This document shows, piece after piece, positions 13,402 through 20,788 of a stretch of 20,788 nucleotides of DNA. Within the stretch, counting starts at the first letter, position 1. Each line of letters opens with the position of its first letter. The stretch spans positions 1 through 20,788 of IMG/VR virus record IMGVR_UViG_3300047557_002184; one strand, given 5' to 3'. The position numbers and the translations under genes are program-made. The notes beneath the pieces were generated by a model. That model searched no databases, was not told where the DNA came from, and saw only the letters and a list, made by a program, of their open reading frames with translations. The DNA comes from a virus.

Positions 13402-14316
13402 TTAGCACGAACCGCCGTTCCGCATTTTCTTTCCGTATTTGCTGTAAATCTCTACATCTTTAGATTTAGCAGCCTTCATGGCCGGTGCATTCTCCTTGTC
13501 AAACATCTTTGTAAGACGTTTTTCAGCAGGAGTCATGACCATGCCACCTTTTTTGAAGCTTCCGGAAAGTTGAGTAATGCTTACGGGCGCAGACGGTTTT
13601 TTATGACCCTGGGGCATTGCTTCCGCCTTGCCTGAGTCATTCACCGCTCCGCCCTTAGCATACTTTTTTGCGGCACCGCCTTTCTTGTAGCCACCGCCGT
13701 TGCCAAGCTTCACACCACCGGTTTTAGCCGGTGAATGATCAGGCTTGGTTGTAACCATCTTGGTGTTTTTGTATTCACCCGCGTCACGCGAACCCTCTTG
13801 CTCGGTGATGATTCCGCCTTTGGCATACTTCTTTACTTTGCCGCCGTGCTTGTAACCACCTTGGCCGTAGACTACGCCACCGGTTGCATACCCACCTTGA
13901 CCCTTGACCACACCGCCGGTTTTGAGACCCTTGTGAGCCTTGGAAGCTGGCTTATCGGCGTGTTCCTTGAGTTTTTTCTCAGTGGACGCCATTTTGGCCA
14001 TTTCCATCTTGTGCTCTTTTTTGGTCTCGCCACCCTCTTTCATCACCTGACCGGCTGATCCAACCGGAGCTGCAGGAGCAGCGCCAGACGGACGCATCTT
14101 CATCATGCGACGACGAGCGGCTAGAGTAGGACGCATCGGGGGCGCACCAGCGGGCATACCGCCAGTAGCTGGCATTCCTGCGGGGGCAGGAGTAGCCGTC
14201 GGAGCCAGGGCTCCGCCCATCTGCATCTTCTTCTCTACCTTGCCACCTTTTTTGAGCTTGAGCTCAACGGAAGGCTCCGTAGTCATCATCTTGACCATTG
14301 GTTTGAACTGACCCAT
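13402..14316 (-). CDS. Gly/Lys-rich repeat protein of unknown function
   Basis: 304 residues, very basic and low-complexity. The first third has a Met/Pro/Ala-rich stretch (37-90) containing AARRRMMKMRP. Residues about 131-223 hold repeats: TGGVVKGQGGYATGGVVYGQ (133-152), KHGGKVKKYAKGG (156-168) and KKGGAAKKYAKGG (211-223). The tail has SFKKGGMVMTPAEKRL and ends KYGKKMRNGGSC, with a single terminal Cys. I know similar K-K-x-A-K-G-G proteins from uncultured aquatic phages, without known function. The gene lies directly after capsid and beta-helix genes and is bracketed by two hairpins, which suggests a distinct transcript level or stability. Binding DNA inside the head, or holding it during packaging, is a plausible inference from charge; nothing proves it. 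Confidence 0.72.
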   Translation of the reverse strand: MGQFKPMVKMMTTEPSVELKLKKGGKVEKKMQMGGALAPTATPAPAGMPATGGMPAGAPPMRPTLAARRRMMKMRPSGAAPAAPVGSAGQVMKEGGETKKEHKMEMAKMASTEKKLKEHADKPASKAHKGLKTGGVVKGQGGYATGGVVYGQGGYKHGGKVKKYAKGGIITEQEGSRDAGEYKNTKMVTTKPDHSPAKTGGVKLGNGGGYKKGGAAKKYAKGGAVNDSGKAEAMPQGHKKPSAPVSITQLSGSFKKGGMVMTPAEKRLTKMFDKENAPAMKAAKSKDVEIYSKYGKKMRNGGSC

Positions 14317-15416: not shown

Positions 15417-16331
15417 TTAAACACCCGGGGTTCCGTACATTGCACGAGGATCGGTAAAGCCGACGTCGTAACGCTCGGTGGCCTTGTACCGCATGGTGTC
15501 GGTCTCAAAGTCACCTTCCATGGTCTTCTCCAGACCACGGCGCATCATCAGCTTCATGCCCTCAGGAGCATCCGTCTGCACCCACCATGCAGTCGCAGAG
15601 GTCAGACGCGACAGAACAGCGGCACCCTCGTCGAGCAGTCCGATGGACTTGATCGGGTTGATGTCGTTGTTTGCGTTACCAGCGCGAAGCACGGACTTCA
15701 GCAGAACCTCAGCTTGGAAGACGTTGCCCGGAGCCACCACCAGTTGGCGGGGAACCAAACGGATCTTCTTGCCGTTGTTGTCTACTGCCTGACGGATCTG
15801 GATGAGCATCTGCTCAAGCGAGGTCTGTGACAGGTTAGCAGGCGTGGTCAGCAGGTTGCTGAAGGTGCCGTTTACGATCGGGTGCGAAGCGGAGTTCAGT
15901 TGAACGCCATCGCCACCGGGGTAAGCGGAGTTAAATGCACGGTTGAGCACGTTCGCGCACAGGGTCTCCTTGGTCTCAATCAGGGACTGAGCGAGGTGAC
16001 GTGCGTAAACTTGGCCGATACGGATATGGTCGCCGTCTTCCACCAGCACTTTGGTCAGGGCGAAGGCCAGGCCATACACCGAGTACACATAGCGCTTGAG
16101 GAAGAGAACACCACCCTGCTGATACGTTACCGGAGTACCGTCAGGCAGTTGAGGTGCTGCGCCAAATCCATAAAGGACCGGCTCTTCGTGATAGTTACGG
16201 GGAATACCTTGTTGCTCGCGGAAAACACGCGACCACTCATCGGTACGCTGATCATAGACTCCATCGAAGCATTCATTGAGAATTGGCTCAACTATGCTTC
16301 TAAAGTCGGTACTGCGCATCGGGGCTGCCAT
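15417..16331 (-). CDS. Major capsid protein (HK97 fold)
   Basis: 304 residues, typical for an HK97-fold capsid protein without protease domain. The N-terminal arm (1-45) is followed by an extended-loop region (PVLYGFGAAPQLPDG, GGVLFLKRYVYSVYGLAFAL, 73-92). A long spine-helix region is DHIRIGQVYARHLAQSLIET (101-120). P-domain/A-domain strands include KKIRLVPRQLVVAPG (188-202), FQAEVLLKS and a C-terminal DFETDTMRYKATERYDVGFT. It has the strongest ribosome binding site in the window, a full TAAGGAGG, which fits the most abundant virion protein. Scaffold, portal and co-chaperonin lie just upstream. It shows no cleavable pro-domain by eye, consistent with a separate scaffold protein. Confidence 0.88.
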   Translation of the reverse strand: MAAPMRSTDFRSIVEPILNECFDGVYDQRTDEWSRVFREQQGIPRNYHEEPVLYGFGAAPQLPDGTPVTYQQGGVLFLKRYVYSVYGLAFALTKVLVEDGDHIRIGQVYARHLAQSLIETKETLCANVLNRAFNSAYPGGDGVQLNSASHPIVNGTFSNLLTTPANLSQTSLEQMLIQIRQAVDNNGKKIRLVPRQLVVAPGNVFQAEVLLKSVLRAGNANNDINPIKSIGLLDEGAAVLSRLTSATAWWVQTDAPEGMKLMMRRGLEKTMEGDFETDTMRYKATERYDVGFTDPRAMYGTPGV

Positions 16332-18479: not shown

Positions 18480-18914
18480 CTATACGAAGGCTTTCATGGC
18501 CAGAGGGTCGCCAGTAACCTTAGCGATGACCTCATGGTCGTTTAACACCATAAACAGGGCTTTTTCGTCGTCGAGCTGGCCAGGCACTGGCACTTCCCAA
18601 CGGTCTCCGCCCCACTTGGGAACCCTCAAATAGTCCCCAACCTCGCACCACGACCCTTCGGGCCACGGCTCCATGGTGTCGCGCTTTTTGAACGCCAGTG
18701 GGCCAATTTCAATGACTTTGGCCACCATGTTGTTCCACTTTTCGGTCTCCTTAGTCTCTTCGACCAGGATGATCCCCGCGCTAGTTGCCTTCTTTTTTGT
18801 GCGCCGCAACTGAACCAAAATACGGGCACCAAGAGGTTTTGCACCGGGGTCCACGCTCGGAAATGCCCAAGCCAATTCAGCTTCGCTAGAAGCTACCGGT
18901 TCATTCATCTTCAT
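18480..18914 (-). CDS. Phage GroES-like co-chaperonin
   Basis: 144 residues, longer than bacterial GroES (about 97). ATG 18914 has AGGA five bases upstream; the ATG one codon earlier is too close to it. After about 25 extra N-terminal residues comes PLGARILVQLRRTKKK (27-42), the usual first strand. The mobile loop follows, with SAGIILVEETKETEKW (45-60); its Ile-Ile-Leu (48-50) sits where GroES has the Ile-Val-Leu that docks onto GroEL. VAKVIEIGPLAF (64-75) precedes an enlarged roof-loop region (76-91, Pro/Trp-rich). GSWCEVGDYLRVPKWGGDRW (87-106) and LFMVLNDHEVIAKV (120-133) match the second half of GroES. Like T4 gp31 it would cap host GroEL to fold capsid protein; that partner is inferred from its place between portal and scaffold. 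It overlaps the preceding gene by 14 bases. Confidence 0.82.
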   Translation of the reverse strand: MKMNEPVASSEAELAWAFPSVDPGAKPLGARILVQLRRTKKKATSAGIILVEETKETEKWNNMVAKVIEIGPLAFKKRDTMEPWPEGSWCEVGDYLRVPKWGGDRWEVPVPGQLDDEKALFMVLNDHEVIAKVTGDPLAMKAFV

Positions 18915-19083
18915 CATCGTCCTTTAATAGACTGTTAAGAATGTCCAAAGACTCCTGTAGTCCTTGGTACTGGCCGACCAAACGCTGATAAGACTCCCAG
19001 TTCGCTACTCCGGTAGCGAGGGACGCGGCTATCTCAGCCTGCCTAGCCTTAATCGCGCCGATCAGATCGGAAGTTGTGTTCAT
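18901..19083 (-). CDS. Small helical acidic-tailed protein
   Basis: 60 residues, ATG 19083 in an ATGA overlap. Almost wholly helical with heptad-like spacing (SDLIGAIKARQAEIAASLAT, YQRLVGQYQGLQESLDILNS), ending in the acidic tail LLKDDDEDE. I recognise this as a frequent tiny gene near portal genes in related phages but know no function. No cysteine or membrane segment. A small assembly factor is possible. Confidence 0.6.
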   Translation of the reverse strand: MNTTSDLIGAIKARQAEIAASLATGVANWESYQRLVGQYQGLQESLDILNSLLKDDDEDE

Positions 19084-19244
19084 TTTTTCTTCTGGCTTAG
19101 ACCTCCTTTCGGTTTGGATTGGTTGTCCGACTGGCTCTTATTGCCCGTCGGCTGCATGGTTTGGCCGGTCAGGGGAACGCCCATGGCCATCCGTTTGCGC
19201 TGTGTCACAAACTCGGTTTTCTGCTCTTTATCGTAATCAGACAT
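19080..19244 (-). CDS. 54-residue polar protein after the portal
   Basis: Starting at ATG 19244 (AAGGAAG seven bases upstream) gives MSDYDKEQKTEFVTQRKRMA and so on to a Lys-rich end GGLSQKKK; a longer in-frame start inside the portal gene is less likely as it has no such site. 54 residues, rich in Gln, Lys and Ser, probably disordered. TGQTMQPTGNKSQSD lies in the middle. Function unknown. It starts one base after the portal stop and its own stop overlaps the next ATG. Confidence 0.58.
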   Translation of the reverse strand: MSDYDKEQKTEFVTQRKRMAMGVPLTGQTMQPTGNKSQSDNQSKPKGGLSQKKK

Positions 19245-19245
19245 C

Positions 19246-20788
19246 TCAGCTTCCTTTCTGGGTAAATTCAACGGCGGTCTTATCCTGGTCAAATTTCAAC
19301 CGGGCCGCATCACGCATAAGTCGTGCCGTTTCGATGCGTTCTTTCATCTCCAAGTCGCCCATAGCAATAGCGAGCTTGTATTTCTGCTCTTCCATGGCGA
19401 TCTCGTAGTCGTTTTCCAAGCGGGCCATCTCGCGCTCGGCTTCCGCGGCCATTTGGCGGTCCTTGATCTGCATCTCGGCCTGGTCGCGCTGGGCGCGGCG
19501 CTGAGTCTCGGCCATGGATGTATCGAGAAGCACCTTGGCGTCCGGGGTGAGCGGCGGCTGGGGCTTGTACTGTTGGGCAGACTGGACCATCTGTTGGATG
19601 ACCGGCAGGATGCCCTGCAGGGTCTCCTGGGTGTCCATGTTGACGTGCTGAGCCGCCATGGCGTAGAGCTGATCCAAGTCCTTCGGATCGACCACCATGC
19701 CGTAATCCTCGTGCTCTTGGCCGCCCAAAGCCTTGTTGACGTAGCCCTTAGAGCGATTCAGATACCAAAGCACGATGTGCTGCTTGACGTGCTCCATAGC
19801 CTTGGGGATGTATTGCGGCGCAATAAGCGGATTACCCCCGAATACCGGGTCTTTAGCGAAATCTAGGTGGCTCTGAATATGAGCTAGGTGATCTTGTTCG
19901 GGATAAGCAAACGCCATCTGCCCGATCGACATGGCCACGTTTTCATTGGCTGCGTCCATCTTCTCAGGCGCCGGCACATCGACCATCAGCTCGTTGACTC
20001 CCGGCACTTTGATCTGTTTTAAGAACCTGGAGAGCACCGCCCGGCGGTTAAAAAGGTCCGGATTCTTATCCATGATGGCCATAACCGCTTGGGTCTGCGC
20101 CATCCGCTGGGTTTCCGAGAAGATATGCGGGTCAGAAACCGGGATAACGTCGGTATTGCGGGCAAAGTCCTCGCGGGCGATATCTAAATCAGCCACGATC
20201 TCGGACTTCTTCATATCGTCCAGATACCAGCGGTTGATTCGGCCCAAGATCTTCAAGACTCGGCCTTGGGACTCGTGCAGGCGGGCGTGAATAGAGGAAA
20301 AAACTACCGCTCCCTGCTCAATTAGCGCCTGAGTCGTGCCGACCGGGGTGTTTTGGCCCACATCGGCAATTTTTTCCTCTGCCGTGGTCACCACGCCCTT
20401 GGCCGCACCGGTCAGCCAGCCCAAGAGCGAGTAAAGCACTTGGGACGGCGGGTTAAACGGCATCGGCATGGCCAGTTTTCGGACGTCATCCACCCCCGGA
20501 GCCGCTTCGATCTCCGAGACTTGGGTGATTTCCACTTGTTGGCTCTGCCCAGACACCTTAGCGCCCTTCAGCTTCAAGAGAGTAGCGGCGTTGTTGATGT
20601 GGGCAGAATCCAGTAGGGCCCGCAAAGCGCCCGTTAGAGCGGCTGCTAGGCCTCCAATGAGGTGAGGTAGGCCCACAGCGTAGGCGCCCCGCCAAGGGAT
20701 GAATTTGAACTCCACAATCCAGTCCAATTTGGTCATGGATTCGTCGTTTTCTTCCCAATTTCGGTATAGGCCGACGACTTCGTTATCC
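19246..20788 (-). CDS. Portal protein, N-terminus beyond the right edge
   Basis: The frame is open through base 20788; 513 residues are visible, and the internal ATG at 20736 is not the real start (DNEVVGLYRNWEEN precedes it in frame). Visible hallmarks are FKFIPWRGAYAVGLPHLIGG, then AALTGALRALLDSAHINNAA, the QQVEITQVSEIEAAPGVDDV region and GTTQALIEQGAVVFSSIHAR with LHESQGRVLKILGRIN. This order is what I know of P22-type portals in aquatic phages. The last 100 residues are a long charged helix (QRDQAEMQIKDRQMAAEAER onward), likely the crown or barrel extending into the head. The portal is the dodecameric entry for DNA and nucleates assembly with the scaffold. It leads the head module; terminase is expected to the right. 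Confidence 0.85.
   Translation of the reverse strand, partial: DNEVVGLYRNWEENDESMTKLDWIVEFKFIPWRGAYAVGLPHLIGGLAAALTGALRALLDSAHINNAATLLKLKGAKVSGQSQQVEITQVSEIEAAPGVDDVRKLAMPMPFNPPSQVLYSLLGWLTGAAKGVVTTAEEKIADVGQNTPVGTTQALIEQGAVVFSSIHARLHESQGRVLKILGRINRWYLDDMKKSEIVADLDIAREDFARNTDVIPVSDPHIFSETQRMAQTQAVMAIMDKNPDLFNRRAVLSRFLKQIKVPGVNELMVDVPAPEKMDAANENVAMSIGQMAFAYPEQDHLAHIQSHLDFAKDPVFGGNPLIAPQYIPKAMEHVKQHIVLWYLNRSKGYVNKALGGQEHEDYGMVVDPKDLDQLYAMAAQHVNMDTQETLQGILPVIQQMVQSAQQYKPQPPLTPDAKVLLDTSMAETQRRAQRDQAEMQIKDRQMAAEAEREMARLENDYEIAMEEQKYKLAIAMGDLEMKERIETARLMRDAARLKFDQDKTAVEFTQKGS

Follow-up and report, generated by a model that had tools for sequence, protein, structure and literature searches.

The window, by which we mean the whole 20,788-base linear IMG/VR virus record analysed here, comes from a freshwater phage and carries its late genes on the minus strand; a megablast search of it against phage records returned no match. 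Its head operon runs from the portal gene through an ORF of about 60 codons, a co-chaperonin gene, a scaffold-like gene and two genes for proteins of 177 and 199 amino acids to the capsid gene (Table 1), so that two further genes separate the scaffold-like gene from that of the capsid protein. The capsid protein also matches a Mu gpT-like family in Pfam. The initial annotation had placed the co-chaperonin between portal and scaffold, which is right overall, except that the ~60-aa ORF separates it from the portal gene. The 316-aa protein matched no named family, phrog_28737 being a PHROG of unknown function; its acidic, coiled-coil-like composition and its position suggest that it is the scaffold. 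A possible short basic ORF on the minus strand (19080-19292), between the portal gene and the 60-aa ORF, loosely resembles gp92 of phage RW (L082:7611-7739).

Table 1. Head-operon genes of the window and segments of its co-chaperonin
Feature	Position	Strand	Basis or remark
Portal protein	19246..20787	-	phrog_1216, E 1.8e-9; 5' end cut at window edge
Small acidic ORF, 60 aa	18901..19083	-	directly upstream of co-chaperonin, overlaps its start
Co-chaperonin, Cpn10/GroES family, 145 aa	18480..18917 (incl. stop)	-	PF00166, phrog_3188, AlphaFold2, Foldseek
Co-chaperonin, alternative start	18914	-	second Met; start used by most homologues
N-terminal extension, residues 1-26	18840..18917	-	alignment; pLDDT ~86-95 at residues 11-30
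Mobile loop, residues 39-65	18723..18803	-	4-5 residues longer than in bacterial GroES
IIL hydrophobic tripeptide, residues 49-51	18765..18773	-	expected GroEL contact
Roof loop, residues 73-92	18642..18701	-	20 residues in alignment
Hairpin 102-119, lineage-specific insertion	18561..18614	-	18 residues in window protein
C-terminal extension, residues 135-145	18483..18515	-	alignment
Scaffold-like protein, 316 aa	17520..18470	-	position, composition, phrog_28737
Conserved head-operon gene, 177 aa	16983..17516	-	synteny
Conserved head-operon gene, 199 aa	16346..16945	-	phrog_37556; synteny
Major capsid protein, 304 aa, 33.7 kDa	15417..16331	-	PF25209 Phage_capsid_4, E 2.7e-13

The co-chaperonin gene is real and of an already recognised kind, encoding a divergent member of the Cpn10/GroES family. 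This bears out the initial annotation, which had proposed a divergent phage co-chaperonin and recommended a comparison with the Pfam Cpn10 profile PF00166; the ORF scores 27.5 bits against that profile (gathering cut-off 21.1; E 3.3e-6), and phrog_3188, co-chaperonin GroES, is the sole PHROG family that it matches (E 3.9e-10). The GroES beta barrel, whose absence had been named as one observation that would count against the proposal, is predicted in an AlphaFold2 model made from 79 aligned sequences (mean pLDDT 80) and is consistent with the Foldseek results; the least certain inner stretch of the model lies in the mobile loop (residues 44-49, pLDDT below 50). All 22 Foldseek matches in the PDB at E<=0.001 are co-chaperonins (human Hsp10, bacterial GroES/Cpn10, chloroplast Cpn20 and T4 gp31), and the best-matching viral structure models are named co-chaperonins. 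VIA-align put the same group on top, with a best Z of 8.9 over 94 residues at an rmsd of 4.1 A; because this Z alone is middling, the family verdict rests on the sequence profile and Foldseek together. The gene is under purifying selection, with a median pairwise dN/dS of about 0.07 within its clade at a dS that is near saturation. Its boundary had earlier been given as 18914, which agrees with the alternative start at the second methionine, while the ORF itself reaches 18917.

Segment lengths were compared in a single alignment of the phage lineage, bacterial GroES and gp31. On the strength of these lengths, the three features pointed out at the outset, namely 25 extra N-terminal residues, an IIL tripeptide and an enlarged roof loop, can all be accepted as real: compared with GroES, the extension adds about 23-25 residues, the tripeptide lies within the mobile loop at residues 49-51, and the roof loop has 20 residues versus 16 in bacterial GroES. 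A longer mobile loop, a C-terminal extension and a hairpin insertion had been overlooked. The N-terminal part ranges from 18 to 52 residues across the phage lineage versus 3-9 in bacteria; that of the window protein has a predicted helix at residues 12-18, and an AFPxxDPG motif in the extension is conserved in the window and Caulobacter clades. The mobile loop, with 27 residues in the window protein, measures 26-27 nearly throughout the lineage (minimum 25), compared with 22-23 in bacteria and 27-28 in gp31, and the C-terminal extension comes to 9-11 residues in all lineage phages, 11 in gp31 and 0-3 in bacteria; these two lineage-wide traits are shared with gp31. Roof loops of 20 residues occur in the window, Caulobacter and CRP clades, and those of 16-17 in the DSL-LC04/HTVC023P and cyanophage clades; gp31 has 9 residues here. 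The hairpin at 102-119 is lengthened solely in the window and Caulobacter clades (10 residues in bacteria and in the other clades).

Of the segments tested, the tripeptide region varies least, with a mean entropy of 1.0 bit. In the 79 sequences, G48 is invariant and both I49 and L51 are conserved in at least 90%, and the tripeptide is kept in sequences just ~25-30% identical to the window protein. The co-chaperonin of Alcaligenes phage QDWS535 (L335:3531-3872) is atypical, with a less clear mobile loop (ALGIDLSA) and a possibly altered GroEL contact.

The same order of head genes is found at every one of the loci L001-L080 whose flank reaches, and in MW202545, Caulobacter phage RW, CRP-902, HTVC027P, DSL-LC04, HTVC023P, 023Pt_psg01, CRP-901, MW202785, MW202796 and MW202675, the last with extra small genes. 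MinM2 shows it as far as its record extends, and phage QDWS535 has it without a separately annotated small ORF. At the testable loci of the other three IMG/VR clades, the capsid gene lies downstream in 112 of 112 and the scaffold-like gene is present in 209 of 209, counts that show order and not independent events, since the loci were found via the co-chaperonin and many are near-copies. The portal tally of the CRP clade is set aside, its query having been a CDS annotated as nuclease. The scaffold-like gene is conserved beside the co-chaperonin in L001-L080 as in these three clades. Hundreds of IMG/VR contigs have the co-chaperonin at this place, as do isolated phages infecting Caulobacter, Pelagibacter, Roseobacter, cyanobacteria and Alcaligenes, and it is often annotated as GroES. 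The view that a co-chaperonin inside the head operon is uncommon did not hold up, for it sits at the same place in all related phages examined but two, and these two carry one elsewhere. Close relatives on contigs binned with metagenome-assembled genomes (L339-L347), many of them from freshwater, are assigned mostly to beta- and gammaproteobacteria, which is a weak host hint only.

The ~60-aa upstream ORF also keeps its place across very divergent phages, with a motif like ESYQRLVGQYQGL. It is present throughout L001-L080 wherever the flank reaches, and in the other three clades a homologue precedes the co-chaperonin at 227 of 228 loci that could be tested. A match to the RecBCD inhibitor gp5.9 of phage T7 (E 0.03) was not repeated in homologues, and that assignment was dropped.

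Searching 50,697 phage records with the capsid protein gave 21 relatives. A whole-record search with the Cpn10 profile found a co-chaperonin in 15 of 15 full-length records with a homologous capsid protein, the count leaving out MW202604, which has the same length as MW202601 and an identical capsid protein; in five further records, which are near-copies, the co-chaperonin was matched by tblastn. Gene order had raised the suspicion that it was lost from MW202601 and from the methanogen virus BK063670, but the genome-wide profile search found both: in MW202601 at 13699-14163 (L415:1700-2164), in another region near the gene for a single-stranded DNA-binding protein, and in BK063670 at 42883-43134, upstream of the terminase gene. 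Both viruses have thus kept the co-chaperonin despite its relocation. When two distant capsid proteins were used for reverse searches, one record was added, a 10.8-kb fragment in which no Cpn10 was found and which, as a fragment, does not decide the matter. As background, a bacterial GroES query matches 92 of the 50,697 phage records, a figure that misses divergent ones. A search of eight complete relatives found no GroEL, whereas its control was positive in all 14 genomes. Co-occurrence of co-chaperonin and capsid protein is also expected from shared ancestry.

Gp31 is the established case of a phage co-chaperonin that replaces GroES. With the fold and family, the conserved tripeptide, the fixed place, the co-occurrence with the capsid protein, the lack of GroEL in complete relatives and the failure to nest within bacterial GroES (see below) all established by computation, the best reading, and one that the analysis supports as quite probable, is that the window co-chaperonin stands in for host GroES on the GroEL of the host while heads are assembled, following the gp31 strategy from a separate lineage. 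In this model a dome of seven copies would, late in infection, dock onto host GroEL by way of the IIL-bearing mobile loop, where host GroES would otherwise sit. The cage so modified would favour the folding of head proteins encoded in the same operon, chiefly the major capsid protein, which is the likeliest client.

The protein might instead be a helper of dosage, supplying extra lids when synthesis of head proteins peaks, without any particular client or geometry of the cage; the loop changes would then be drift. An ordinary cage could hold a capsid protein this small, and roof and hairpin lengths do vary among clades, but drift is unlikely to have fixed the gp31-like longer mobile loop and C-terminal extension in all main clades, and we consider this explanation unlikely. 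Still less probable is a reuse of the GroES fold, for example in head assembly or as part of the virion, with GroEL binding lost; the strict place among head genes and the additional N- and C-terminal parts would fit such a role, yet few positions are as well conserved as the tripeptide expected to contact GroEL and the glycine beside it. Loss of the GroEL contact in side branches is conceivable, given the less clear loop of the Alcaligenes phage.

Phages do carry host-like GroES, one record having a copy 60% identical to bacterial GroES, and the gene could in principle be a host groES recently captured as a passenger. In a tree of 69 sequences, however, the 36 bacterial GroES, mostly from Pseudomonadota, form one clade without phage members (support 100/98), although the alignment is short. 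The best bacterial-profile score for the window clade is low, and the gene order is old; recent capture is thus hardly credible. Bacterial GroES score at most 48.5 bits and gp31 at most 3.8 bits against the profile of the lineage, which together with the tree argues for a long-standing lineage of phage co-chaperonins distinct from gp31, the inner order of the tree being unsure because it has few columns and several long branches. A special kinship with gp31, suggested by a PEG..CEVGD stretch, was rejected on the grounds that the profiles are far closer to bacterial GroES; in hhalign comparisons, the score of gp31 with the window clade was not clearly above its score with bacterial GroES, and the window protein gave no profile match to the gp31 family phrog_931, so that kinship is seen only at the superfamily level.

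Returning to replacement of host GroES on GroEL, gp31 resembles the window protein as a phage co-chaperonin recovered in the fold search, with a long mobile loop and a C-terminal extension, and as a lone co-chaperonin acting on host GroEL. It differs in that the roof loop is absent, the gene lies outside the head operon and the client is gp23. In T4, gp23 (56 kDa) is described as slightly too large for the GroES cage, and the longer gp31 loops have been credited with an 8% larger chamber (PMC6318259). The suggestion that the enlarged loop of the window protein changes chamber size stands as far as the enlargement goes, but an effect of size for a large substrate is weakly argued where the capsid protein has 33.7 kDa versus 56 kDa for gp23; also against it, gp31 manages without a roof loop and some phages of the lineage lack the enlargement. 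A capsid protein of 33.7 kDa should fit the ordinary GroEL-GroES cage, which speaks against the need for a special lid. A bolder version, in which this capsid lineage obligately needs its own co-chaperonin because the small capsid protein cannot fold with host GroES, the two genes having stayed together and the gp31-like longer mobile loop having evolved independently, is put forward tentatively and is somewhat doubtful. On this view the genes have been retained together across phages of alpha-, beta- and gammaproteobacteria and cyanobacteria, as well as in the methanogen virus.

Bacterial GroES shares the Cpn10 domain, beta barrel and tripeptide with the window protein but has neither terminal extension, and its mobile and roof loops are shorter by 4-5 and 4 residues. 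Closest are the co-chaperonins of Caulobacter phages RW, KcrB, RLK and GB2A and of MW202545, 57-63% identical over most of the protein, with the same gene order and insertions and differing by sequence drift alone; GenBank entries of relatives carry the annotation co-chaperonin GroES, but not in every record, GB2A and RLK listing a hypothetical protein. The GroES of HTVC023P-type pelagiphages and CRP-901-type roseophages belongs to the same family, likewise lies between the portal and capsid genes and has both the long mobile loop and the C-terminal extension, but is only ~27-31% identical and has an unenlarged hairpin 102-119 and, in the HTVC023P type, an unenlarged roof loop. GroES is one of 13 core genes in HTVC023P-type phages (PMC9599517, 2022) and is drawn in a roseophage genome map (PMC10149686). 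In the part of the literature covered, we found no statement of a strict tie to one capsid lineage or of gp31-like loop lengths, and we claim no priority.

Phage co-chaperonins as such are known, but to our knowledge few clients are established besides T4 gp23. A capsid lineage that seemingly never loses its co-chaperonin, with cultivable Caulobacter members, would offer a simple second system in which to ask what makes a capsid protein require a GroEL lid of its own and, because this capsid protein is not large, to address cage size versus contacts between lid and client. In another kind of phage, Xanthomonas phage PBR31 (L417), a GroES gene lies just upstream of the terminase and portal genes.
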